A stretch of DNA of 64,000 bases from Lachnospiraceae bacterium. Lineage in GTDB: Bacteria; Bacillota; Clostridia; Lachnospirales; Lachnospiraceae. Within the stretch, counting starts at the first letter, position 1. Each line of letters begins with the position of its first letter. Below are positions 37,564 to 64,000 of this stretch, one piece after another. The translations under genes were made by a program, and so were the position numbers. A model generated the notes under the pieces. The model worked only from the letters and a program-made list of their open reading frames with translations. It had not been told where the DNA came from and did no database searches. The stretch is from assembly GCA_017472605.1 (NCBI GenBank), contig JAFUPV010000005.1, positions 62,001 to 126,000 on the forward strand, written 5' to 3'.

Positions 37564-38718
37564 TTGTTAGAGATTAAGATAAATGAATCCGAGGGTTCCG
37601 CAAAAATTGTAGTTGTCGGTGTTGGCGGTGCAGGAAATAACGCAGTTAACCGGATGGTTGACGAAGATATTGTTGGTGTTGAGTTTGTCGGTGTAAACAC
37701 AGACAAGCAGGCACTTCAGTTCTGCAAGGCTCCGACTGCGATCCAGATCGGCGAGAAGCTGACCAAGGGTCTTGGTGCAGGTGCAAAGCCTGAAATCGGC
37801 GAGAAGGCTGCTGAAGAAAACATGGATGAGTTAAAGGAAGCCATGAAGGGTGCCGACATGGTATTCGTTACCTGCGGTATGGGCGGCGGTACCGGAACCG
37901 GTGCAGCTCCGATTATCGCTTCTCTGGCAAAGGAAATGGGTATCCTGACCGTTGGTGTTGTGACCAAGCCGTTCGCGTTCGAGGGAAGAGCGCGCATGAA
38001 CAATGCCCAGAACGGTATTGACAAGCTGAAGGAGTCCGTTGATACCCTGATCGTAATCCCCAATGATAAGCTGCTTCAGCTGGTTGACAGAAGAACAACC
38101 ATGCCGGAGGCTCTGAAGAAGGCAGACGAGGTTCTGCAGCAGGCAGTTCAGGGAATCACTGACCTGATCAACATTCCTGGCCTGATCAACCTTGACTTTG
38201 CTGACGTACAGACAGTAATGAAGGACAAGGGCATTGCCCACATCGGTATCGGAAGCGCAAGCGGCGACGACAAGGCAATCGACGCAATGAAGATCGCTGT
38301 TTCCAGCCCGCTTCTTGAGACCACCATCGAGGGCGCAACCAATGTCCTGATCAATATTACCGGTGACATCAGTCTTCCGGAGGTTCACGAAGCTGCAAGC
38401 TACGTTCAGGAGCTTGCCGGTGATGACGCGAACATCATCTTCGGTGCTACATACGATGACAGCGCTGCTGATGAAGTAACAATCACTGTAATCGCTACCG
38501 GTGTGGAAGACAAGAACATGGAAGACGGAATGGCAAGTGCCGCTGCCAGAAAGTCAACCGGCGCAAAGGCTTCTGATTTCGCATACCGTGCTCCGTCCTC
38601 CTCTTCCAGAGACTACAGCAGAGAAGAGCCGAAGTTTGATCCGATCGGCTATGGCGTACCGAAGCCACAGAAAGAGATCAAGGATATCAGCATCCCGAAT
38701 TTCTTAAAGCGCAGCTGA
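37564..38718 (+). CDS. ftsZ: Cell division protein FtsZ
   Basis: The 384-residue tubulin homologue polymerises with GTP into the division ring. [18 protein letters not shown] is the N-terminal nucleotide loop, [15 protein letters not shown] the tubulin signature near residue 105, and [10 protein letters not shown]-type and DFADVQTVM segments follow. A variable linker leads to the conserved C-terminal tail [10 protein letters not shown] that binds membrane anchors. It starts with TTG 37564 behind AAGGAGGAG, and a strong terminator follows. With ftsA absent from the cluster, SepF or another anchor probably tethers the ring. Confidence 0.98.
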
Positions 38719-51364: not shown

Positions 51365-51396
51365 AACACTCCCCGGCTTGTCATCCGGGGAGTGTT
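51365..51396 (+). terminator. Terminator after the carboxypeptidase gene
   Basis: AACACTCCCCGG pairs exactly with CCGGGGAGTGTT around an 8-base loop. The T tract is poor. Its loop and right arm are part of the next promoter. Confidence 0.7.
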
Positions 51397-51406
51397 GTGC
51401 TATAGT
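51378..51406 (+). promoter_or_regulatory. Promoter of the VWA-tubulin-like operon
   Basis: TTGTCA (51378-51383) lies in the loop of the preceding hairpin, and TATAGT (51401-51406) follows after 17 bases. The start site near 51413 gives a leader of about 80 bases. Confidence 0.65.
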
Positions 51407-51490
51407 TACAGTATAGACGGAATTTTGACAAAAGTTTGGAAGATTCGTACAAAATGCATGTGATACCGTCAGGAATGAAAGGGAGATACT

Positions 51491-54316
51491 ATGAGAAAAT
51501 ACATCGCGATTTTTGTGCTGTTGATGATGATCGCAGCCGGAATTTCCGGACAGTCAGCTGTGTATGCCGATTCGTCATCGGGAAAGAAAATTGTAACGAT
51601 CGTCTATGATGATTCCTGGAGTATGCAGACAGGAAACCGATATTCCAATGCCAATTACGCGATTCAGGCATTTATTGCGCTTCTGGATGAGGAGGATGAA
51701 CTCTATCTTGTCTACATGAGCGATGTGCAGCGGGCGGTGCAGGCGGATCCGTCCAATCCGGAACCGTCCGGTCTTGCCTATGCCATTGATCTGTCCAATC
51801 CTCAGGCTGCTGTCGATCAGGTGCGGACACAGCCGTGGAACGGAGGCGGAACGCCCTATGGATCGATCCGTGTTGCCTACAACGAATTGTTCACCCATGT
51901 GGATTCGGATCCGTCTACTTCCTACTATCTTGTGGTTCTCTCCGACGGCGGATTTATGGATGACCTGACCAATCAGATTACCATTGATACCAGCCAGGTT
52001 CAGGCACAGTTTGAATCCTTTTTCCAGACACTGGCTCCCAACCAGACGAGGCTGAACACCTATTATCTTGCCATTGGCTCAGAAGCGGTGCCTCTGACCG
52101 ATCGTCCGGATCTGAATTTCCACGCGCTGGTAACGGTGGATGGCCAGAGCATGATCCATGCCATTGGCCAGATGGCGGACATGATTTCCGGCCGCTATCG
52201 CCTGGATCCGTCCGAGATAACGGTGGTCGATGGAAAAACGGTTCATGTCACCTCCCATCTGCCGCTGCGCAACATCGCGTTTCTGTCGCTGGGAAGAGAA
52301 GCGGAGGTTTCATCCGTCACCGGACCGGATGGAACGGCCTATTCCATTACAAGAAATGTGAAGCTGTCTCCGGATGCCTACAATGTGGATCCTTCTCTGT
52401 TCGGCAATGCAATTCTGGCAGATAACAGCGGGACAAACATTCCGGCTGGGACCTATACCGTTGCGTTTACTTCCGAGATTGATCCGGCCAGTCTGACCGT
52501 CGTGTTTGAACCGGCTGTGGAATACCAGCTGCGGTTCACCTGTCAGGGAAAAGAGATTCCGCAGGAAGCACTCCCCAATCTGATGGAGGGCGAGGAGGTA
52601 ACGGTAACAGGCGTTGTCGTGGAGGCCGGGACCGATACGGTCATTGATCCGGCACTGCTGGAAGCCGGGACTTCCTATCAGCTGATGTACTATAATAAAG
52701 ATAACGTTGTTTCGCAGACCGAAGGGCAGGAACTGAACATTGTTTTGGGAAGCGGCGGCAACCGGATTGTCGGAACCATGTCCATGCCCGGTTTTCTTCC
52801 AATCACCGATGATGTCCGTTTCAGCATGGAGTCTGTTGTATTTGGGATTGAGACAGACCGGGACCTTGTCAGTGCCAGACAGAATGAGATGGATCAGTGC
52901 GATTCCATCCGTTTTTACATAACCGATAATGGAACACGCCTTTCCAGTGATGATGCGATGCGCTATGAGCTGACGGAACCGGTAATCACTGGAGGAACGC
53001 TGGAATACAGCTGGATGAGAGAAGAGGACGGTTCCTATGTGTTTCGTCCGTCAGGAAAAACGGAAAGCGTCGGTACGCTGACCGTGACCACGTCTCTGGA
53101 AGGCCTTCCGACTGTTCTGGAGCAGCTTGGCACGATGCAGCTGTCCAAGTCGGTCACGGTAGAATCTCTGGAAAAAATCGCATATGCCTATGAAGCGGTG
53201 CCCGGACGTTCTGACGGAAAGACAATGACAGCCAGGCAGAATGAACTGGATGCATGTGAACCGGTTTTCTTCTACCTGACTGCAGACGGCGTCCGCGTCG
53301 GTGCAAAGGAAGCTTCCCGGTATGCCGTCTCGGAACCGGTCATTGAAGGCGGAATGTTTGAATACCAGTGGTACTTTGATGAGGAACAGGGCTGCTATGT
53401 GTTCCAGCCTGCCGGTGAAACGGAAGATACCGGAGAAATGAAGATTTCCGTTGCCTGTGAGGAACTGGAGGCGGCTGGAGAAATCAGTCTGACCGTGCTG
53501 CCGAAAATCAGCTACGGAATAACAGGCCACGGGGGAGAGGACGTTGTCCTGCAGTCTGCCCTCGGCTCCCTTGCGCCAATTACCTTCTATCTGACAGCAG
53601 ATGGGGTACGGATGACAAAGGAAGAGGTGGAAGCGCTGAACCTGAAATGCAGCTCTGTCTTTGAAGATTCCGTTTTCTTCCTGTGGGAAACAGGCGGGCG
53701 GAAAGCAGGGATCGGGCGGAAGGTAAAGATTCAGGAAGACGGCTCCGTTACATACCAGCCGCGGGGCGTCAGCTGGTTTTACGGTGATGTGACAGTAACA
53801 CTGTCAATCCCGGGGGAAGCGGAATGTCAGGTTTCCTTTACAATCGGCAGAAACATGTGGATGTACTGGATTCCTCTGATTGCTCTTTGTGTTCTGCTGT
53901 TTCTGATCTGGTGTATCATTGGCTGGATTCGTCAGCCGAAATTCCACAACCAGATCATGGAGATTGTGGTCTACACGAAGTTCGGTGTAGGAATTCAGGA
54001 GTCGCCAAGGATCAAGGTCATGAAGCACAGAGTCGGCCTGATTCCCTGGAAAGCCTGCCGGATGCGCGTTGGTGACATGGTATTTGTTGCCGGTGCAAAC
54101 CGGAAAATTCTTGTGGATAAGGATTGTCTGCGCCACAGACTGGCCTATGCCGGGAAGGTAAGGTTCATGGGACGGAATGCTTCCAACATGAGCCGCCTTC
54201 TTCGAATGATGGAACCGACGAAACGGGACATTCGTCTGGTGCGCGGAATGGAATTATATGTTGCAGATGATAAAAATTCGGAAGCGGTAACAGGATACCG
54301 TCTGACCAGCAACTGA
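51491..54316 (+). CDS. Membrane-anchored VWA domain protein with three internal repeats
   Basis: The 941-residue protein has a signal peptide (residues 1-26, cleavage near VYA-DS), then a von Willebrand A domain from about residue 33. The metal-ion site IVYDDSWSMQ carries Asp40, Ser42 and Ser44. Repeated Ig-like units follow: ARQNEMDQCDSIRFYIT near 463, ARQNELDACEPVFFYLT near 580 and LGSLAPITFYLTADGVRM near 688, each of about 100 residues. One membrane segment (MWMYWIPLIALCVLLFLIWC near 789) separates them from a ~130-residue cytoplasmic tail. The outside part probably binds a protein or wall ligand; the tail could contact the tubulin-like protein next door. GGGAGA precedes ATG 51491. Function is unknown. 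Confidence 0.85.
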   Translation: MRKYIAIFVLLMMIAAGISGQSAVYADSSSGKKIVTIVYDDSWSMQTGNRYSNANYAIQAFIALLDEEDELYLVYMSDVQRAVQADPSNPEPSGLAYAIDLSNPQAAVDQVRTQPWNGGGTPYGSIRVAYNELFTHVDSDPSTSYYLVVLSDGGFMDDLTNQITIDTSQVQAQFESFFQTLAPNQTRLNTYYLAIGSEAVPLTDRPDLNFHALVTVDGQSMIHAIGQMADMISGRYRLDPSEITVVDGKTVHVTSHLPLRNIAFLSLGREAEVSSVTGPDGTAYSITRNVKLSPDAYNVDPSLFGNAILADNSGTNIPAGTYTVAFTSEIDPASLTVVFEPAVEYQLRFTCQGKEIPQEALPNLMEGEEVTVTGVVVEAGTDTVIDPALLEAGTSYQLMYYNKDNVVSQTEGQELNIVLGSGGNRIVGTMSMPGFLPITDDVRFSMESVVFGIETDRDLVSARQNEMDQCDSIRFYITDNGTRLSSDDAMRYELTEPVITGGTLEYSWMREEDGSYVFRPSGKTESVGTLTVTTSLEGLPTVLEQLGTMQLSKSVTVESLEKIAYAYEAVPGRSDGKTMTARQNELDACEPVFFYLTADGVRVGAKEASRYAVSEPVIEGGMFEYQWYFDEEQGCYVFQPAGETEDTGEMKISVACEELEAAGEISLTVLPKISYGITGHGGEDVVLQSALGSLAPITFYLTADGVRMTKEEVEALNLKCSSVFEDSVFFLWETGGRKAGIGRKVKIQEDGSVTYQPRGVSWFYGDVTVTLSIPGEAECQVSFTIGRNMWMYWIPLIALCVLLFLIWCIIGWIRQPKFHNQIMEIVVYTKFGVGIQESPRIKVMKHRVGLIPWKACRMRVGDMVFVAGANRKILVDKDCLRHRLAYAGKVRFMGRNASNMSRLLRMMEPTKRDIRLVRGMELYVADDKNSEAVTGYRLTSN
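52865..53812 (+). repeat. Three internal protein repeats in the VWA protein
   Basis: Units begin near 52865, 53226 and 53550. The first two share ARQNE(M/L)D.C, then EPVI.GG..EY.W and YVF(R/Q)P(S/A)G(K/E)TE. The third is weaker but keeps FYLTADGVRM, and later VTYQPRG. They are too diverged at DNA level for recent duplication. Confidence 0.75.
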
Positions 54317-54401
54317 GCAGAATTGCCCGACCGGCGTCAGGTAAGACTGCGGCAGAAACGCAGCCAGGCTGCGGCGGCAGAGGGATCAGAGGAGGATAGC
54401 A

Positions 54402-57400
54402 ATGGAAAACGAGTATATCTATGAGGAAGCCGGCAGAAAAATTCTGCAGGATACACAGGGCGCACCGATTCTCCTGATTGGAGTCGGCGGCGTGGGAGGA
54501 AGGATCGTAGCGCAGGTTGACCGCATGCTGGCCGCGGATTCACCGAGAAGAAATAAAGTCGCGATTGTGGCGATTGATACCAATGTAAAGGATCTGAGAA
54601 AGCTGCGGGACCAGGGAATTGAGACAATTCAGATCAGCGATGAGCGTCTTGTCCGTCAGTATCTGAAAGACCATCCCCAGTACATGAGCTGGTTCCCCAG
54701 CAACATCTTCCTCAACAACAGAGGAATGCTGGAAGGAGCCGGTCAGATCCGGGCGATTTCCCGTCTTGCCGCTCTGGCAGCGGAAGAGGAAGGAAAGTTT
54801 CTGCCCATCGAGAATGCGGTCCGCAGGATCGCGGCGATCACGGGAAGCGGTCTGAAAGAGAATGTGCTGACCATGGTGGTTGGTTCTGTCTGCGGAGGAA
54901 CGGGAGCAGGTATGTTTATTCAGATCCCGTTCTATGTAAAGCGGGTAATTCAGAAGATTCTTGCCATTCCCAATGTAATGGTCCGCGGTATGTTTCTGGG
55001 ACCGGATATCATGGCTCCGATTCAGCCGGGTGAGCTGAACCGTCAGGCGGTTTATGTGAATGCCTATGCCTGCCTGAAAGAGCTGAACGCGTTTTACATG
55101 CTCCAGCGCCGTGATGCGGCGGATTCGCTGCTTCGGATGGAGTACTATGACTATGGAGAAAATGAGGATCTGGAAGCAGAGGTCATGGAGTCGCGTGCCA
55201 TGTATCAGAACTATGCCAGAGACATGGCAAGTCAGGGTGCTTCCATGGAAGACGAGATTCCGGACGATATCCAGGAGGAATATCTGAAACGGAACGGAAC
55301 CATTCCCTATGACCATCTGTTTTTGTTTGACAGCAGCTTCAATGGCGGAACCATTGGTCAGAAGCAGCTGGCAGAGGTAGAGAAAATGGTAGCTGGAATG
55401 GCCTATGTTCATCTGCTGACGGACGTTGGTGAAAATGCGCTTTCGGTGGAGGATAATTTTATTCTGTCCACAATCGGAAGCAATGGCATGTCCCGTTATG
55501 GCAGCGCAGGTCTGTGTAAGCTGATCTATCCTGGTGATCAGGTGATGCAGTACTGTTCGCTGCGCTGGCTCACAGAGCTTGTGGATCGTTACTGGCTGCG
55601 GATTGACCATCAGTTTGAAGAAGAGCTGTCTATGGCAAGAGAGGAACAGAACCTGAACCCGAGAGTGGTTCTGCCCAATATTCAGGAGCGTTACCAGGAG
55701 CTGTTTCTGGAAGAGACAAGGGGGGAGCATGCCGGTCTTTCCGCTCTGTATTCTCAGGTGTTCATGGAAACAGAAGACGGCGGTGAGATTTCCCTTGCCG
55801 GTCAGTTTCTGGAAGCGATGGAACAGGAAATTGAGGATGCTATCGGCGGCGACAGTCTTCAGAAGATGGCAGAATCCTGTCTGGACATTTCCATTGAACA
55901 GTGGGCACAGTCTCCCGAGGCTGCCCGCCAGGGCGTTGCAACAAATAAACAGTCCATCCGCAATTACCGCGCAGCGGTGATGAAGGTGATGGAGGATAAC
56001 AAATATTCACTGCCCAACCAGTTTATTCCGGCGACTCTGTCTGCCATGATCAGTGTCAGCGACAGAGAAGCGTGCATTTCTTCGATTCTGGGCCGTGTTC
56101 ATCCCATTGCGGCGAGATATCTGCTCTATGTGATCCTGGAAAACATTCGTGCCAGAAGAAAGGAAGCGGAGGAAGACTGCTATGGACTGGAGCTGGATCT
56201 GGTCAGCAGCGCTGATTATGATATCTCCGGTGATAATCCCAACGCGCCCATCGAGGCAGTTCTTGGAAAGCGGATGCGCAGGCGGGAGCTGAAGCGTGTT
56301 CTTGAGGTATATGAAGATGCGGCAGGAAGAACGGTGTCCAATCTGACAGCTTACGCTTCCTGCGGACTTCGTGCGAAAATTTATCTGACTCTGGAAAAGC
56401 GCCTGGAAAAGCTGTGTGATCTGTATCAGCGGTTCTTCCGGATTCTGGAAGGCGCGACAGAGGACATTCGCCGTCAGGTGAAAGAGCTTCGTTCCATGGA
56501 AAAGCAGTCTTCCGTCGGTGAGCAGTATGTCTGCTGCAGTGAGGATTGTCTGGATGTGCTGTATTTCCGTTTTGCGCTTCAGTGCCAGTCATCCAGCTCT
56601 GCTCTTCCTCAGGAATCCTCCAGGGCAATTCTTCGCTGCATTTACGGTGAGATGGAACAGCAGCTGAAGCAGACCGGCATGGCACAGCGAAAAAAGGAGG
56701 AATATGCCTATCATAACCGCATGCTCCAGATCTTCCGCCAAGCAGTTGTTCTTGTGATGCAGGAGAAAGCGAAGGAAGAGGCATCCTCGCTGATCGCAAT
56801 GAACATTTATGACGCCCTTGCGCTGGAGATGGAAACGATTGTCGGCGTTTCCAGGGAAAATAACCGGGAAGCCTATGACTATCATCTGGATAACTGGATT
56901 AAAAATAAAGTGGCAAGAGCCATGACAATGGCGCAGCCATGGATCGGAATCTGTAACATCGTTGGAAAAACAACCATGTCTGTATATCTGGCAATGCATC
57001 CGGACAATGCGGTAAAAATGGATGGAACAGCAAGCGTGGAAGCAACGGCGCAGCGCTTTCTGAAGGATACGGCGACGCCGGACGGCCATGCCGTGACGGT
57101 CCTGATCCACGACAATTTCCGGGCGGATGAGCTGATCTGCTACAAAGCCAGATACAATTTGCTGATTGAGAATCTGGATAAATTTAAGAGGGGAGGAGAG
57201 GCACACCGCCATTATGAGGAACGGATGATCCAGATCGGAAAAATGCCGAGAACATCGCAGGAGGCGGATGTCATTACAGTGATCAATCCCCATCTGAACA
57301 AGTTCTGGTGTGAAGAAGCCTATCTTCCCAGCATCTATCCTTCCCAGCGTGCAGTGGATGAGAAGAATAACATCCGTGCCTTTTTCTATTCTCTGACGCT

Positions 57401-58097
57401 GGATAAGCCATGCTGTGTCCGGCTGAAAAATAAAAAAGGAAACATCTCATGGTGGTTCCTCCACGGAATGGAGACAATCCGGGTAAAAGCGGCGGGAATA
57501 CCGATTGGAAACTCCTATGCAGATCTGTACGAGTCTATGAAATTTAACCGGGAAATGAAATATACGCTTCTCTATGATGGAAGAAACCATCTGCGCCGCA
57601 CCAAGGCACTGTCCTCACCGGATACCATGGAAGAAGAAATTTACCGTCAGACCATGATTGCCGACATGATCCAGCAGGAGAAGGAACCGGATGACGAAAA
57701 CATGCTGGATATTCTGGAAAAGATGAGCCGCGGCATGGAAACAGGCGCGTTTAACAATCTTCTGCGCGGTTTCGGTGTGTTCATTCGGGAATACTGTGAG
57801 TTTATGTTTGACCGTGACGAGGTGAAGACGCTGTATGCCTGCCGCAACATCCGCAATGCAATCGTAAGCTTTTCCAGACTCTATCAGAAACGTAAGAATG
57901 AAACATTGACTTACCGGGAAGAAACATTGTTACGAAACTTCCTGGATCTGTACGAGGAGGAGGAACTGATCAATTCCAACGCAGGTCTGACCAGAGTTCT
58001 CTATGGAGAGGACGAGGAAGCGGAGGCTGCCGCGGCAGCGGCCGATGAGCCGGGTGAGCGTGTTTTGTATACCGGGGATTATGATGATCTTGCATAG
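54402..58097 (+). CDS. Tubulin/FtsZ-superfamily protein (Tubulin-like domain)
   Basis: This very large 1231-residue protein belongs to the tubulin/FtsZ superfamily but is not FtsZ. The N-terminal nucleotide loop reads ILLIGVGGVGGRIVAQVD (residues ~24-41), VAIVAIDTNVKDLRKL follows, and the tubulin signature is SVCGGTGAGMF near residue 165. It is about three times the length of FtsZ. After about residue 500 the sequence is helical, with charged stretches that may form coiled coils. An Ala/Glu-rich acidic tail ends the protein. No membrane segment or signal is visible, so it is cytoplasmic and may polymerise with GTP. GGAGGA precedes ATG 54402. Its neighbours (VWA, coiled-coil membrane protein) suggest work at the membrane. 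Confidence 0.85.
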   Translation: MENEYIYEEAGRKILQDTQGAPILLIGVGGVGGRIVAQVDRMLAADSPRRNKVAIVAIDTNVKDLRKLRDQGIETIQISDERLVRQYLKDHPQYMSWFPSNIFLNNRGMLEGAGQIRAISRLAALAAEEEGKFLPIENAVRRIAAITGSGLKENVLTMVVGSVCGGTGAGMFIQIPFYVKRVIQKILAIPNVMVRGMFLGPDIMAPIQPGELNRQAVYVNAYACLKELNAFYMLQRRDAADSLLRMEYYDYGENEDLEAEVMESRAMYQNYARDMASQGASMEDEIPDDIQEEYLKRNGTIPYDHLFLFDSSFNGGTIGQKQLAEVEKMVAGMAYVHLLTDVGENALSVEDNFILSTIGSNGMSRYGSAGLCKLIYPGDQVMQYCSLRWLTELVDRYWLRIDHQFEEELSMAREEQNLNPRVVLPNIQERYQELFLEETRGEHAGLSALYSQVFMETEDGGEISLAGQFLEAMEQEIEDAIGGDSLQKMAESCLDISIEQWAQSPEAARQGVATNKQSIRNYRAAVMKVMEDNKYSLPNQFIPATLSAMISVSDREACISSILGRVHPIAARYLLYVILENIRARRKEAEEDCYGLELDLVSSADYDISGDNPNAPIEAVLGKRMRRRELKRVLEVYEDAAGRTVSNLTAYASCGLRAKIYLTLEKRLEKLCDLYQRFFRILEGATEDIRRQVKELRSMEKQSSVGEQYVCCSEDCLDVLYFRFALQCQSSSSALPQESSRAILRCIYGEMEQQLKQTGMAQRKKEEYAYHNRMLQIFRQAVVLVMQEKAKEEASSLIAMNIYDALALEMETIVGVSRENNREAYDYHLDNWIKNKVARAMTMAQPWIGICNIVGKTTMSVYLAMHPDNAVKMDGTASVEATAQRFLKDTATPDGHAVTVLIHDNFRADELICYKARYNLLIENLDKFKRGGEAHRHYEERMIQIGKMPRTSQEADVITVINPHLNKFWCEEAYLPSIYPSQRAVDEKNNIRAFFYSLTLDKPCCVRLKNKKGNISWWFLHGMETIRVKAAGIPIGNSYADLYESMKFNREMKYTLLYDGRNHLRRTKALSSPDTMEEEIYRQTMIADMIQQEKEPDDENMLDILEKMSRGMETGAFNNLLRGFGVFIREYCEFMFDRDEVKTLYACRNIRNAIVSFSRLYQKRKNETLTYREETLLRNFLDLYEEEELINSNAGLTRVLYGEDEEAEAAAAAADEPGERVLYTGDYDDLA

Positions 58098-58109
58098 TGA
58101 GGTGGGTTC

Positions 58110-60230
58110 ATGCTTTTATATGTAATTAATGTGGAAGCCTGCATCCATGCGGAAAACTACCGGATTTTCTTCTATGAGCCGGTGGCAAAAAAGCAGCTGG
58201 AGCTGTTTGAAGCTTCCTGGGAACCGGCTTCTCTGACTAAGGCATTTCGTGAAGTTGCCAGCCACATCAATCGAAGAGGGTTTGAAGGCGGCGACTATCA
58301 GGTGATCGTCTGTGTCCGGAGAAGAGAAAGCGACCGCTGGAAGGAAACGACTCTCTATGCAAAAGCCATGGTTTGCAGGGCATTGGAAAAATCGGGAACA
58401 ATCCCGGTGATCACCGGCTCTTACACACGGAAAGTGATGGTTCTGTTTCAGGTGGAACAGCCCTATTACGGAACGGTTCCAAAAACGGCAGTCTGGGAAG
58501 AAGAACTGAATGGAATCCAACGTTTTCTGGATCTGCTGGAAATCCGAACTTCCATGAGTGAGACGGATGAAGAAAATGGAACATTGTTACAGGCAGCGGG
58601 GCTCTGGGGAAAAAGGCCGGCAAGCCAGTGGGAAGAAGAGCTGGCTGCAGCTGTGGAACGGGAAACCGCTCCGGGCTTTGGAAAAGACGGGGAGACGGGA
58701 GCTGTAAAGAAACCGGAAAAGAAAACAGACCGGATTTTTGCTGACCTGAAGGAGCGTCTTCGTCTGGCGATGGATGCGGAGCGGGAAAGCGGGAAGGAAA
58801 AAGAAGAAGAGGCTCCAGACGCGGATGAGGCGCTGGATGCACTGCTGGCAAAACAGGAAGAGGAGCAGGAAGAAGAAGGATTTGACTACATCAGTCACAG
58901 AATCCGGAGTCTTTTCGACGGCAGCGGTCTGAACCGCTGTACAGATGTGATCTACTGGCCCGTCGCTAGGGAAATCAGCCGCGCCAACCGGATCAGCATG
59001 CTGAGTCTTGTGGATCTGCTTCGGAACGGCGAAGAAGTGACAAGAGAAGCTGTTCAGTCGTACTACAGCAGTCAGGACACGGAAGCGGAGGAACGTCTTC
59101 TGGATAAATACCGGGCTGCTCTGGCGGGGTATCGAGAGCAGCTGAGTCAGAAGCATGACCGGATTCTTCAGGAAGTGATTTCGCAGGAAGAGCAGCCGGT
59201 TCAGAAACTGTCGCTTTCTCTTCCCGAGCTGTCGTTTCGTCTGGCTGAGCGGATTGAATCCGCAAAGCAGCAGCTGGAAAGCTGCCGGATCTCTCTAAAG
59301 CGCAGCAAACGACTGGAAGTCCGTGACCGTGTGGAAGAAATCAGTCAGTCGCTGACTGCTTCGTTCACCGGTCTGGAAGAGGAACTGACTGCCTATGAGA
59401 AAGAAGTGACCGACTGTCTGTACCGGGAAATTGAAGGGCACAGCTATGCCGGCTTTGCAGAAGCAGCCTATGGGAACGCAAAGAAGGATTCCGGTTTCTG
59501 GAATCGGCCGGACCAAATCGGCAGCCGTTTGCAGGAAGGGATTCCATCCTTTGGAACAGGAAAGAAAAACCGGGAGACGGCCGACGAGAAAACAGGAAAA
59601 GCAGGCATCCGTCAGTGGCGCCGGGAAATGCAGGTGCTGATTGACTGTACCAGACTGACCGGAGCAGCTGCAGCTGTTTTTTATCTGACCGGAGCAGCAG
59701 CTCTGGCTTTTGTGCCATGGCTGGTGTATCAGGGAACGGTTCTTGAGAATAAGGAACTTCTTCCTGTTTCTGTGAGTCTGTTTGGGATTCTGCTTCTGGC
59801 TCTTGTCATTTGGCGTGTGTTCATGCCCGGCTATTTTATCCGAAGCATCACTGCTGCATATTCCCAGCTGGAAGAAACATTGAACCAGGTGCTGGATCAG
59901 TATCAGGAGAGAGCCAATGAGTACAGAGACTGCGCAGCCGACTGGCTGGAGCAGGAATACGAGCTGCAGAATGAGAGAAGACGGAATCAGAAAAAGCAGG
60001 AGATGTCCGAACTGGTTTCCATGAGAGCCTGGCATCTGGCAAACATGCAGAAGACGCTGGCCGGTCTGGAGACGTTTCAGAGCTTCGGTGAGGAGTGGCC
60101 GAAGGCAGCAGAGAATCCGGAAGTGACAAGGCGCATTCTGCAGCCGATGGATTACAAAAAGAAGGAACTTGGAAATGAGGTCTACTGGCCTGTGATTGAG
60201 AAGGAAGAAGGAAGGCGGATTCATGAATGA
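58110..60230 (+). CDS. Coiled-coil protein with two C-terminal membrane segments
   Basis: I do not recognise a family for this 706-residue protein. Residues 1-120 form a compact beta/alpha domain (MLLYVINVEACIHAENYRIF, YQVIVCVRRRE, YAKAMVCRALEK). A Glu/Lys-rich linker follows (residues ~190-260), then helical coiled coil to about 500. Two membrane segments lie near 516-536 (AAAVFYLTGAAALAFVPWL) and 550-572 (VSVSLFGILLLALVIW), and another coiled coil (LEETLNQVLDQYQERANE) fills the C-terminus. Both large parts face the cytoplasm. It starts 12 bases after the tubulin-like gene and overlaps the next by 8, so it is probably a membrane adaptor for that protein. Confidence 0.75.
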   Translation: MLLYVINVEACIHAENYRIFFYEPVAKKQLELFEASWEPASLTKAFREVASHINRRGFEGGDYQVIVCVRRRESDRWKETTLYAKAMVCRALEKSGTIPVITGSYTRKVMVLFQVEQPYYGTVPKTAVWEEELNGIQRFLDLLEIRTSMSETDEENGTLLQAAGLWGKRPASQWEEELAAAVERETAPGFGKDGETGAVKKPEKKTDRIFADLKERLRLAMDAERESGKEKEEEAPDADEALDALLAKQEEEQEEEGFDYISHRIRSLFDGSGLNRCTDVIYWPVAREISRANRISMLSLVDLLRNGEEVTREAVQSYYSSQDTEAEERLLDKYRAALAGYREQLSQKHDRILQEVISQEEQPVQKLSLSLPELSFRLAERIESAKQQLESCRISLKRSKRLEVRDRVEEISQSLTASFTGLEEELTAYEKEVTDCLYREIEGHSYAGFAEAAYGNAKKDSGFWNRPDQIGSRLQEGIPSFGTGKKNRETADEKTGKAGIRQWRREMQVLIDCTRLTGAAAAVFYLTGAAALAFVPWLVYQGTVLENKELLPVSVSLFGILLLALVIWRVFMPGYFIRSITAAYSQLEETLNQVLDQYQERANEYRDCAADWLEQEYELQNERRRNQKKQEMSELVSMRAWHLANMQKTLAGLETFQSFGEEWPKAAENPEVTRRILQPMDYKKKELGNEVYWPVIEKEEGRRIHE

Positions 60231-62610
60231 TATTCTGATGATATGTTTGCTGGCGGGGATTCTGTTTCTGACCGGCTGCCTGATTCAGTCCATCCGCCGG
60301 ATGACTGCCTCGGACAGCAGAAGGATCCGATGGTGCCGCCAGACTGCGGCAATTGTGATTTTCTGTGCGGTTCTGCTGCTTTTGCCGGTTCGAACACTGC
60401 TGTTGGAACGTTTTCAGCAGCTGATGGAATCCGGGATTCTGGCGGAGTTTCGAACGGCTGTGTTTGTCAGACGAAATTATCAGCTGCAGTATGTGCTGCT
60501 GTTCTATCTCTATGCAAATCTGATTATTCTGTTCCTGGGCTGGCTGATTCTGAGCGTTCTGAATGCGGCGGCTGACCGCGGTGAGGTTCTTGTGTTTCGC
60601 AAGCTGCCTCCTGAGGGAAAGCTGCTTCACCTGCCCTGGGTGCTGGCAGATCTCTGTTACGAAGAAAAGGAAGAGGGAATGGTGCTTCGTCCCTGGGCAG
60701 CAGTTCTCGGGAAATGGATGAAGAATCTTTCTTCTCTTCTTCTCCTGTTGGCTGTGATTCAGGCTTTTATTGCGATTCTTGCACTGTATATCCGGATTCC
60801 ATGGCTGAACCAGGCAGAGGGAGCTGCTTTTTTCTCCGCCAGCTATCTGGTGCCTTCGATCCCCTGGCTGTTTGCGGAGGTTTTGGCGGGATTTCTGAAA
60901 TACTGTCCCAAAGAGCGTCCGGACCGAAAACGGGAAAAAAAGCAGGAGAAAGACCTGCAGAGCGAAGAACTGTATCGTCTTCTGATGGAAGAAAACAATG
61001 TTGCAGTAACAGGCACAGTGTTCGATTTTCATGAAACAATGATTCAGAACAGAGAATGCGAGTGGCTGACTGCCTTTCTGTTTGATGGATTTCAGAAGCG
61101 CAGAAGATGTGTATTTGTCTGCAGAGATGAAGAGGAAAAAAGGCAGTGGGAACAGTACCTTTGTCAGAGTCTTTCCCATACGTTTGACCGGATTCCGGTG
61201 ATCCGGATCGGCGGTGTGATGGAAATTCAGAATCAGCAGGATATGGATCTTCTTCTTGTTACAGGGGAACAGCTGGCTGCCCTGGAACCGGACCGTGTCT
61301 ATCCGTTCTGGTATCGGGAAGCACGTCTTGTTGTTCTGACGGATACCCATCCGCTGCTGGCAAAAACAGGCCGGACTGCTGACGCGGTATTTGCATTATG
61401 GAATAAAAAGGAAGAACCGGTACAGTACCTGTTTCTGCAGTGCACCGGAAGCGGCCAGGAACAGCAGGCGCTGCGTTACTATGCGGCAGAGGAGGTTACT
61501 GTTTTCGGTGATTCCTGCCAGCGGATGCAGGACACTGCAGGAGAAGGAAACCCTGCGGTGCAGGAGAAAGAGAGCGGACAGAACTATCCGATCTTTGATC
61601 TGGTCTGCTGGTGTCTGGATTCCCAGCAGGGAAGAATGCGCCGTCTTCTCTTCGCCATGGAGCAGGAGGGCGGAGTTTCGGAGCAGTGGATTCGAAAGCA
61701 GCAGGAGCGTTTTGGTATGGAGAACCTGGGAACGGAGGAATTTCTGACTCATGTCCTTCACGTGGTATTCCCGGGGATTGCAGTTTCCAATCTGTATGAC
61801 ACGTTTCTGTTTCAGGAGGAAGCCGCTCAAAACAGAAGCAGCTGGACGGTCCGCCTGACAGACCGCGGCGCGCTGGCACTGCTTAGCCAGGCGCAGGAAG
61901 AGGAAACGGATAGCGGAGAGCAGGGGATACCGGTCAATCCGTTTGCCATGACAAGAGGAAATGTTCTGATAGAAGACCAGATTTTCCATGTGTCGGATCT
62001 GTCGCCGCTGCTGGCTGATCTGGATCAGGAAAAGAAGCGGCTGATTCTGTACCAGGCTGTCATGAGCTGTGAAAAGAAAGGCGTTTTCTCTTTTCCTGCC
62101 AGAGAGGGGGGAACCGATTACAGTCTGGAATCCTATCTGGAGGAGAAAAAATCCGCTGGTCCATATGAGGTAACCATGCTGCGGATTGTGATTCCTCCAA
62201 AGCATCCATCGGAAGAAAGCAGTTATTTATCAGCTCTGCTTTCGCTTGTCTGCAGCCAGGTTCTTCGGGAACTGTTTCCCTGGAATCCGAAGGAGGCAGT
62301 CGCCTGCTGTGATCTGGAAACGGAACAGAGGTGCATCTTTAACCGTGTCCGGATGAATGAGGAAGACAGACCTGCCGTGCACTGCATTACCGTAGACATT
62401 CTGGAAACGGGAAAACGGGAGGCGGGGCTGACAGCAGTTCTGCGCATTAACAGCAGAGAATTGTTCTGCGCATGCAGAAACTGGCTGCTTCGTGTCCGGG
62501 CAGATGTAAATTCGGAAGAGGGACGATTGATGGCGTATGCACATCAGCAGCTTGGCAAGTCGATGGAAGAATGGGATGGAACCGGAAAGCTGCTGGAACT
62601 GCTGAAATAG
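60223..62610 (+). CDS. Polytopic membrane protein with large cytoplasmic domain
   Basis: This 795-residue protein is not recognised. Five hydrophobic segments lie in residues 1-240: ILMICLLAGILFLTGCLI, IVIFCAVLLLLPV, YVLLFYLYANLIILFLGW, LSSLLLLLAVIQAFIAILAL and YLVPSIPWLFAEVLAGFL. The remaining ~550 residues are soluble. Parts look like a worn helicase-type core (VTGTVFDFHETMIQNRE, RRRCVFVCRDEEEKRQ, LLVTGEQLAALEPD, LVVLTDTHPLL), but there is no Walker A, so any ATPase resemblance is weak inference. I chose ATG 60223, which follows GAAGGAAGG and overlaps the previous stop by 8 bases. Close coupling indicates one complex with its neighbours. Confidence 0.7.
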   Translation: MNDILMICLLAGILFLTGCLIQSIRRMTASDSRRIRWCRQTAAIVIFCAVLLLLPVRTLLLERFQQLMESGILAEFRTAVFVRRNYQLQYVLLFYLYANLIILFLGWLILSVLNAAADRGEVLVFRKLPPEGKLLHLPWVLADLCYEEKEEGMVLRPWAAVLGKWMKNLSSLLLLLAVIQAFIAILALYIRIPWLNQAEGAAFFSASYLVPSIPWLFAEVLAGFLKYCPKERPDRKREKKQEKDLQSEELYRLLMEENNVAVTGTVFDFHETMIQNRECEWLTAFLFDGFQKRRRCVFVCRDEEEKRQWEQYLCQSLSHTFDRIPVIRIGGVMEIQNQQDMDLLLVTGEQLAALEPDRVYPFWYREARLVVLTDTHPLLAKTGRTADAVFALWNKKEEPVQYLFLQCTGSGQEQQALRYYAAEEVTVFGDSCQRMQDTAGEGNPAVQEKESGQNYPIFDLVCWCLDSQQGRMRRLLFAMEQEGGVSEQWIRKQQERFGMENLGTEEFLTHVLHVVFPGIAVSNLYDTFLFQEEAAQNRSSWTVRLTDRGALALLSQAQEEETDSGEQGIPVNPFAMTRGNVLIEDQIFHVSDLSPLLADLDQEKKRLILYQAVMSCEKKGVFSFPAREGGTDYSLESYLEEKKSAGPYEVTMLRIVIPPKHPSEESSYLSALLSLVCSQVLRELFPWNPKEAVACCDLETEQRCIFNRVRMNEEDRPAVHCITVDILETGKREAGLTAVLRINSRELFCACRNWLLRVRADVNSEEGRLMAYAHQQLGKSMEEWDGTGKLLELLK

Positions 62611-62624
62611 AAGGAGAAAGGAAG

Positions 62625-63695
62625 ATGCGGACAATGGGAAGAAAAGTTCAGCTGTTGTTTCATGGGCTGATGGTCGTTTCTCTTTTGGCTCTGTCCGGCT
62701 GCGGGAGTCTGTCAGATTCCCTGCTTGGCCAGGCGGAGCAGTTCGCAAAGGGAAAGGAAGAAGACGGGTACTATCTGGAACCGCCTGCGTACCGGATGAA
62801 AGATCTGGTGGAGCAGTATACCGGTCCATACCGTCAGGTGATCTGGACCGACCAGGGCAGTGGAAAACAGGAACCGGCCGGCTGGGAAGAATTGGGCGAT
62901 CTGCAGTTGAAATCGGATGACTGCATCAGCAGTACCCGGGAACTGGAGCAGCTGCTGGAAACTGCCATGGAAAATGTGGTACTTGGCATTGAGCTGCATT
63001 TTGATAAAAGCCGTTATCTGCCCAAAGAGGGGCAGCTGGAGCAGTGGCAGAGAAGCTTCGAGGCCAATCATCCGCTCCTGACGCTTGGTCTGGAAGAGAT
63101 TCGATGCAGTCAGACGGAAAGCGGACCAGGTCAGGTAACCTGTCTTCTTCTGGATTACAGTCAGGGACTGGAAGAAATCCGTTCGATCCGTGAGCAGGTG
63201 AATGATGCGGCAGAGGAAATTCTGGAAACAATCACGGCAGATGCTGCCCAAAGCGGATCTAAAGCAGAATCAATGACGGAAAGGGAGAAGGCAGAGGCTG
63301 TGTGGTCATATATGACAGTGATGACGGCATATCCGCAGAGTGAGGACGCAGCTTTGTCTGAGTCATGCAGCCGGGCAGATGGTGCGCTGTTGGATCATCT
63401 GGCAACTGGCCAGGGATTTGCGGAAGCGGCAAAGCTTCTTCTGGATGGTCTTGGACTGGAAAATGAGATTCTTGTCCAGGCACAGGAAACGTCGGAATCC
63501 GCAAAAACGAAGGAACCGGCAGAAAATCAGTTTGATGTCAGGGACGAACTGCAGATGTTGGAAGATCGTTACCGGTTCATCAACCGGGTGAAAATAGACG
63601 GTGAATGGTGGCAGATGGACTGCTGCTTTGGAGCGGTGACGGAAGGAAACAGAGATTTCTTCAAGAAAGAAGCTGTGGATGAGGATGCGAATTAA
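62625..63695 (+). CDS. Lipoprotein with inactive transglutaminase-like fold
   Basis: The 356-residue protein has a lipoprotein signal (lipobox LSGC, Cys near residue 26) and should lie on the outer membrane face. After helical segments, residues ~255-335 resemble a transglutaminase core. ATGQGFAEAAKLLLDGLGL matches the family's GVCQGYAEAF..LL...G, but the catalytic Cys is Gly. RFINRVKIDGEWWQMDCCFG matches HAWN.V..DGEWY..D.TW, but the His is lost and the Asp motif is altered. It is thus probably a binding protein, not an enzyme. AAGGAG precedes ATG 62625, 14 bases after the previous stop. Confidence 0.75.
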   Translation: MRTMGRKVQLLFHGLMVVSLLALSGCGSLSDSLLGQAEQFAKGKEEDGYYLEPPAYRMKDLVEQYTGPYRQVIWTDQGSGKQEPAGWEELGDLQLKSDDCISSTRELEQLLETAMENVVLGIELHFDKSRYLPKEGQLEQWQRSFEANHPLLTLGLEEIRCSQTESGPGQVTCLLLDYSQGLEEIRSIREQVNDAAEEILETITADAAQSGSKAESMTEREKAEAVWSYMTVMTAYPQSEDAALSESCSRADGALLDHLATGQGFAEAAKLLLDGLGLENEILVQAQETSESAKTKEPAENQFDVRDELQMLEDRYRFINRVKIDGEWWQMDCCFGAVTEGNRDFFKKEAVDEDAN

Positions 63696-63756
63696 AGCGG
63701 AATAAACAGAATAAAACAATGTATTACCGAACGGAGAATCAGGAGGTTTGAAAAAA

Positions 63757-64000
63757 ATGAAGGAAGCGTTGGATGTACTGAAGAATCGAAGGAGCATTCG
63801 TAAGTACAGGAAGGAGCAGATCACAGAGGAGCAGCTGGAGCAGATTCTGGAAGCTGGAACCTGGGCTCCTACCGGAATGGGAAAACAGTCTCCGGTGATG
63901 GTCGTTGTGCAGAAGCAGGAACTGATCCAAAAGCTGTCGAAAATGAATGCAGCCGTGATGGGTGTGGATACAGATCCGTTTTACGGCGCGCCGACTGTGA
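63757..64000 (+). CDS. Nitroreductase family protein (partial, 5' end)
   Basis: The first 81 codons of a gene that runs out of the window. MKEALDVLKNRRSIRKYRKE is the FMN-binding start typical of NfsA/FRP-type nitroreductases, and EAGTWAPTGMGKQSPVMVVV is the second conserved stretch (usually APSG.N.QP). The enzyme family reduces nitro compounds, quinones or flavins with NAD(P)H. AGGAGG lies ten bases before ATG 63757. It starts 61 bases after the transglutaminase-like gene with no clear terminator between, so co-transcription is possible but its role there would be unclear. Confidence 0.85.
   Translation, partial: MKEALDVLKNRRSIRKYRKEQITEEQLEQILEAGTWAPTGMGKQSPVMVVVQKQELIQKLSKMNAAVMGVDTDPFYGAPTV

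Follow-up and report, generated by a model that had tools for sequence, protein, structure and literature searches.

The window analyzed here is a stretch of 64,000 nucleotides from a Lachnospiraceae bacterium (GenBank assembly GCA_017472605.1, contig JAFUPV010000005.1, positions 62,001 to 126,000 of the forward strand). Close to its 3' end lie five genes, all on the + strand, which code for an extracellular VWA protein (VWA), an oversized tubulin (TUB), a coiled-coil protein (CC3), a polytopic membrane protein (TM4) and a lipoprotein (LP5). It became clear that the genes around TUB form a conserved cassette, in which a tubulin is joined to a membrane-anchored protein homologous to a DNA helicase family.

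Layout of the five-gene cassette

VWA (51491-54316, 941 residues) comprises a signal segment, an extracellular VWA domain, an ectodomain, one transmembrane (TM) segment near residue 793 and a short cytosolic tail. It is followed by TUB (54402-58097, 1231 residues), an FtsZl1/Tubulin_2 protein, and by CC3 (58110-60230, 706 residues), built of a cytosolic N-domain, a coiled coil and a TM hairpin near residues 521 and 550. TM4 (60223-62610, 795 residues from ATG 60223, or 804 residues from TTG 60196) combines four N-terminal TM helices with a motif-dead superfamily 2 (SF2) helicase module of the YprA/MrfA type, and LP5 (62625-63695, 356 residues) is a transglutaminase-like lipoprotein with the lipobox LSGC. 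The intergenic spacings are 85, 12, −8 and 14 bases, exactly those given in a sequence-only reading of this stretch, which had placed the five genes correctly. Hydropathy gives VWA a signal segment and a single TM, CC3 two TMs, TM4 four (3, 43, 91 and 172), LP5 a signal segment and TUB one borderline segment (155) that is modelled as a strand. The predicted topology crosses the membrane, in agreement with the trans-envelope layout proposed earlier.

The single promoter of that reading stands only in part: one promoter-like site, TTGTCA-17-TATAGT (51378..51406, + strand, 10/12 matches), lies 5' of the VWA gene, but such sites are not in excess over chance in the region (4 found, against a mean of 7.5 in shuffles), and the site is not proof of a promoter of the five genes. 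No terminator-like site is listed between LP5 and the next open reading frame (ORF), at 63748-63999, which starts 52 bases 3' of LP5. We take this ORF to be nitroreductase-like, and it may be co-transcribed with LP5.

Conservation of the cassette

A profile built from six TUB sequences found 302 relatives in GTDB contigs, and the context counts given here and below use the best 80 of the 302. These 80 are labelled mostly as gut and rumen Clostridia, the other labels being Coriobacteriia, Erysipelotrichia, Microbacteriaceae, Treponema, a Myxococcales bin, Saprospiraceae and a few others. A usable TUB ORF was present in 76 of the 80 loci; the TUB ORF of the remaining four (L040, L043, L044 and L060) was lost in ORF calling because of a longer overlapping antisense ORF, and these loci stand outside the context counts. 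By profile search, the gene directly upstream of TUB is VWA in 70 of the 72 loci with enough upstream sequence. CC3 follows TUB in 62 of 65; where it was missed, TM4 is still found further down in two of the three cases. TM4 is present downstream in 58 of 60 testable loci. Only 6 of 248 non-TUB hits (839 ORFs) fell outside the cassette context, all in loci where TUB had been dropped. Three pairs of loci are the same contigs (L019/L036, L020/L051 and L021/L104), and counts mixing L019-L023 with L029-L108 hold duplicates. The sequence-only reading had named a lack of co-occurrence in related genomes as one result that would count against it; the neighbours do co-occur, since they form a conserved cassette.

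Because the partner profiles were trained on loci chosen by TUB, a second, genome-wide test of co-occurrence was made. Among 381 genomes of the class, some of which may also be the source of training loci, six hold a strong TUB match and six a strong TM4 match, and five hold both (hypergeometric P 5.5e-10); with the window genome left out, four are shared of five and five (P 2.9e-8). The cut between strong and weak matches was set by eye, and excludes four genomes with TM4 at E 6e-4 to 8e-4 and six with TUB at 89 bits or less. As for the two unshared genomes, the TUB match of G504 reaches the contig end, and the TM4 match of G747 covers the C-terminal part only (1077-1278 of 1285) in a frame of 238 residues. 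In a further genome, G447, the TUB and TM4 matches lie on different contigs and the TUB frame is interrupted by a stop.

Within the family, TUB matches occur in 11 of 250 genomes, the window's own included, and some of these are shorter or other-type tubulins; among three genomes of the genus, only the window genome has one. In a TUB tree the window protein is sister to a clade of nine rows, with Shimodaira–Hasegawa-like approximate likelihood ratio test (SH-aLRT) values of 100 for the ten and 97 for the nine. One row of that clade (L033) is labelled Methanobrevibacter but groups with the Clostridia; we infer that the label is probably a binning error or contamination.

TUB: a tubulin fold apparently split by a helical insert

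TUB matches Pfam Tubulin_2 (PF13809) at E 5.8e-47, with 161 bits against a family cut-off of 27, and is the sole match to this family in the 3.68 Mb assembly. The ordinary FtsZ of the same genome is coded at 37564-38718 of the window, and TUB is not a canonical FtsZ, scoring 15.4 bits where the TIGR00065 equivalog cut-off is 295.2. The putative GTPase domain (residues ~20-400; 54459..55601, + strand) carries the loops GVGGVGG and GGTGAG, which we take to be T1-like and T4-like, respectively. The predicted GTP-binding loops are conserved in the TUB family, and the columns that are invariant across 62 proteins are retained in the window TUB. The domain score, the signature GTP loops and the VWA operon partner all place TUB in the FtsZl1/Tubulin_2 family, which bears out the earlier assignment of the 1231-residue protein to the tubulin superfamily.

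Downstream of the GTPase domain, a helical insert with approximate boundaries (residues ~419-845; 55656..56936, + strand) would separate it from strands taken as the remaining tubulin C-terminal domain (residues ~846-982; 56937..57347, + strand). The split was derived from secondary structure and from the coverage of FtsZ/CetZ chains by the predicted model, in which the tubulin fold looks complete, yet interrupted by ~430 helical residues. An hhalign comparison with the window FtsZ aligned only the N-terminal domain, so the C-terminal half of the fold rests on the model. TUB thus suggests that the tubulin fold is able to carry an insert of this size. Structure and literature searches found neither a function nor a solved structure for FtsZl1 tubulins.

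The VWA protein

Pfam did not recognize the window VWA; among 41 members of its family, VWA_2 matched in six and VWA in two. The motif DxSxS falls within the first 160 residues in 75 of 78 complete members (the window's and a few duplicate loci among them), and across 41 proteins conservation reaches 90% or more at columns D40, S42, S44, T121 and D152. The residues of the metal-ion-dependent adhesion site (MIDAS) of VWA proteins, namely DxSxS, T and D, a motif also given by Makarova and Koonin (PMC2875224), are present, and a motif check found the MIDAS intact in the window protein. The signal segment, the single TM and the conserved MIDAS agree with the secreted VWA protein with one membrane segment that had been read from the sequence.

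CC3 and TM4: a membrane-bound dead helicase

CC3 has no Pfam match above the cut-off. For the soluble part of TM4, the top Foldseek match was MrfA (2.8e-5). Compared by hhalign with 15 aligned MrfA orthologues, the TM4 profile matched over 634 columns (E 6.2e-9, score 86), whereas none of 20 column shuffles scored above 24 and the reversed profile reached 31; a single-sequence hhalign of TM4 against one MZB protein gave no signal. The soluble part is collinear with columns 61-733 of the 812 in the MrfA alignment. Helicase motifs I (GKT/S), II (DE) and VI (QxGR) are each kept in none of 34 TM4 family members, and the motif VI columns are gapped in the window protein. The module (residues 232-795; 60916..62607, + strand) is therefore a pseudo-helicase rather than an active YprA/MrfA member, and no translocation by TM4 is expected. 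Pfam DEAD, Helicase_C and MZB gave no match at E 0.1 in the 34 of 52 aligned TM4 members that were scanned. Judged from these alignments, TM4 is a four-TM anchor bearing a full-length, motif-dead helicase of the YprA/MrfA type. It extends the YprA family, which is central to several phage-defence systems, by a branch that is inactive and bound to the membrane.

In TM4 relatives the helicase part is followed by a peptidase motif, HExTHxWQ, in 51 of 57 loci. The window TM4 lacks both this peptidase and the C-terminal Zn ribbon of its relatives; a marginal Pfam match to Peptidase_M76 lies inside its helicase part and was ignored. Matches of the TM4 profile to chemokine receptors were set aside as generic TM similarity.

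LP5 and the enzyme-less window copy

The LP5 family profile matches the solved transglutaminase-like domain protein 9crn_A (E 1.3e-32). The Cys-His-Asp set is complete in 17 of 17 LP5 relatives, and Cys and His are present in 9crn_A, whereas the window LP5 has Gly at the Cys column and no His and keeps the Asp. Without the catalytic Cys and His, it does not qualify as a transglutaminase enzyme, and the pseudo-transglutaminase lipoprotein of the sequence-only reading was well named. A marginal Pfam match of LP5 to HicB was ignored. The window cassette is a reduced form, devoid of the peptidase part and of the Cys and His of the transglutaminase. The composition described earlier (VWA, coiled coil, polytopic protein, lipoprotein) is thus confirmed, though that description had missed the dead helicase, the peptidase motif, the split tubulin and the reduced state of the window copy.

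Accessory neighbours

Part of the relatives carry TIR, RyR-type or FtsK genes beside the cassette, partners that the earlier list had also missed. In 11 cassette-bearing genomes there are 30 TIR_2 matches, seven of which, spread over five genomes, are no more than 10 kb from the cassette (5/11 observed, 0.36 expected, P 5.8e-6). The test was prompted by a TIR gene seen first in G237; without this genome the result is 4/10 (P 1.2e-4). A three-TM RyR-type family occurs in 12 of the 80 loci, with 7 of its 13 ORFs in the same run as the cassette, and one member has a weak TrkA_N match. A two-TM family of three clearly related proteins adjoins the core in L067, G234 and G154 and has a weak Castor/Pollux match below the cut-off (0.0069). 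In G234, TM4, a small ORF, the Castor-like, RyR-type and TIR genes and LP5 form one co-directional run.

Several single loci were also observed. A TIR domain with leucine-rich repeats is coded just downstream of the G237 cassette (L168:2825-5014), and in L052 a TIR-like domain is fused to a methyltransferase domain (Pfam) beside the cassette, with a related ORF in L073. Upstream of the window-type cassette in L036/L117 and L047 stand a membrane protein of 575-595 residues and an AAA gene, joined in L036 by a TIR gene; the same membrane protein lies beside a DO-GTPase tubulin operon in L024.

Comparison with known systems

The link between FtsZl1 tubulins and VWA proteins was published in 2010 by Makarova and Koonin, who proposed a machine for membrane remodelling or vesicle forming (PMC2875224). 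Their system and the present cassette share the tubulin family, the VWA partner, an operon rich in membrane proteins and a large helical part of the tubulin. The published account names GTPases, kinases and OmpA proteins as partners and reports no tubulin C-terminal domain, whereas in the window cassette no GTPase gene was found and the tubulin fold is apparently complete and split. A dead YprA-type helicase, with a peptidase motif in relatives, and a transglutaminase-like lipoprotein are further differences; the main text of the 2010 paper mentions no helicase, peptidase or transglutaminase. What is new here is the apparently split tubulin fold, the dead helicase of TM4 and the peptidase motif that follows it. 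No earlier description of this gene set was found in the literature, with supplements and most subscription papers outside the scope of the search.

GAP1-N2 DO-GTPase systems, for which a role in biological conflict was predicted (Kaur et al. 2020, PMC7159879), likewise combine a tubulin that has a C-terminal helical region with an extracellular, membrane-bound VWA protein in Firmicutes and Actinobacteria. A second, different FtsZl1 operon in L024 (7007-10534 and neighbours), with VWA, tubulin, a DO-GTPase2 protein (PF19993) and others, resembles these systems. Its DO-GTPase2 protein had no match in any locus or in the window in a single-query search that could miss remote members; its 636- and 231-residue neighbours are unmatched as well, and the 595-residue protein is matched in L036 and L047. 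Pfam matched neither CC3 nor TM4 to DO-GTPase or GAP1, and it gave no match for the GAP1 candidate of L024 either.

YprA/MrfA helicases (DUF1998, MZB) include members of DISARM, Dpd, Druantia and ARMADA (PMC12458937), from which TM4 differs by its membrane anchor, its lost motifs and the metallopeptidase motif of its relatives. The main text of that preprint mentions no tubulin, vWA, transmembrane or metallopeptidase.

A putative surveillance machine and its alternatives

The core of VWA, TUB, CC3 and TM4 would form a membrane-spanning assembly of sensor, switch and platform, which an extracellular transglutaminase-like protein appears to join in part of the relatives. A surface event may be sensed by the VWA ectodomain and relayed through the membrane to TUB, which would use CC3/TM4 as the platform for its assembly into a polymer or a switch; we infer, as the sequence-only reading did, that an outside signal could in this way be read into a filament. 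The dead helicase would not be a motor but a scaffold to which nucleic acid or a partner could bind. The output could be proteolysis or cleavage and, in cassettes that have such neighbours, the action of FtsK ATPases, TIR proteins or channel-like proteins of the RyR type. In the window copy, sensor, switch and platform are retained and both enzymes are lost, and it would therefore act as a scaffold or signalling form, or through effectors encoded elsewhere.

We tentatively favor a membrane-bound surveillance machine of the FtsZl1/VWA kind, directed at conflict or envelope stress, because some neighbours are of kinds met in prokaryotic conflict systems and because Kaur et al. ascribe a predicted conflict role to another tubulin/VWA system; this is a serious possibility, falling somewhat short of an even chance. 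It also draws on the conserved order and co-occurrence of the core genes, the MIDAS and the GTPase loops, the dead helicase, the peptidase motif of relatives and the TIR, RyR-type and FtsK neighbours. The full version would be an undescribed immune or stress system in which an extracellular MIDAS receptor addresses a polymer of the split-fold tubulin, and the membrane-embedded platform of dead YprA helicase beneath this polymer controls a metallopeptidase and brings in TIR/RyR-channel effectors; this version, with the window as its enzyme-stripped derivative, is doubtful. The four-gene core, with its dead helicase, peptidase motif and partial TIR/RyR-type neighbours, gives FtsZl1 tubulins testable parts and a testable role.

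Several points weigh against surveillance. The dead helicase may have nothing to do with nucleic acids. TIR-like proteins were found in just 6 distinct loci of 80 by a looser sequence search (one being a cut ORF), no TIR_2 match lies within 10 kb in 6 of the 11 genomes, and the window genome, one of these six, has none at all. The TIR test was post hoc after one case, with hand-entered coordinates and no control gene class, and therefore may reflect only the landing of cassettes in defence islands; several contigs also extend less than 10 kb on one or both sides of the cassette. Pfam sees RyR in only two of five RyR-type members scanned (L170, 7.8e-8; L171, 3.9e-5, the latter below the cut-off). 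The PADLOC 2023 anti-phage systems gave marginal matches only for VWA, TUB, CC3 and TM4 (best E 0.0021), and the window cassette adjoins dacF-type and nitroreductase-type genes with no visible defence island. The marginal PADLOC matches that pair TUB with Cas8/Cas10 and CC3 with ZorA were taken as coiled-coil noise.

The published proposal of membrane remodelling or vesicle forming, in which tubulin, assembling on a platform at the membrane under the drive of GTP, would bend the membrane with VWA as an adhesion partner, draws on the tubulin family and VWA partner shared with FtsZl1 (PMC2875224) and on the fact that most cassette partners are membrane proteins. It leaves unexplained why a dead helicase and a metallopeptidase motif are conserved and why TIR, RyR-type and FtsK neighbours occur, and we regard it as unlikely for this cassette.

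DNA handling at the envelope would have the tethered dead helicase bind DNA while an FtsK-type ATPase and the tubulin polymer move, hold or block it during uptake, conjugation or segregation. The full-length homology of TM4 to a DNA helicase family speaks for it, as does one ORF family located 3' of TM4 in the same gene run in all 12 of its loci: the member adjoining TM4 in L101, the only one scanned, has an FtsK_SpoIIIE domain (6.5e-18), and related long ORFs occur in six more loci (the seven span 828-1023 residues, cut by the locus end). This family, however, is found in only 12 of the 80 loci, in five of which the ORF is short (132-208 residues), and no member was seen beside the window cassette. 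With translocation by TM4 excluded by its dead motifs, DNA handling is quite improbable.

It is just as improbable that the window copy is a decaying relic, a notion prompted by the missing peptidase part, the lost transglutaminase residues, the gapped motif VI columns and the lack of a TUB match in the two other genomes of the genus, given that its five frames are open and tightly spaced, its TUB is conserved at invariant positions and its MIDAS is undamaged. The two other genomes of the genus carry only distant homologues of dacF.

Variant loci

A shorter Tubulin_2 relative of ~800-843 residues is present in four genomes of the family (L025, L026, L027 and L028); in L025, L026 and L028 it adjoins a gene that resembles the one for peptide chain release factor 3. 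Three VWA-family ORFs stand in tandem in L107 and in G442 (L176), and L078 contains two cassettes in a row.

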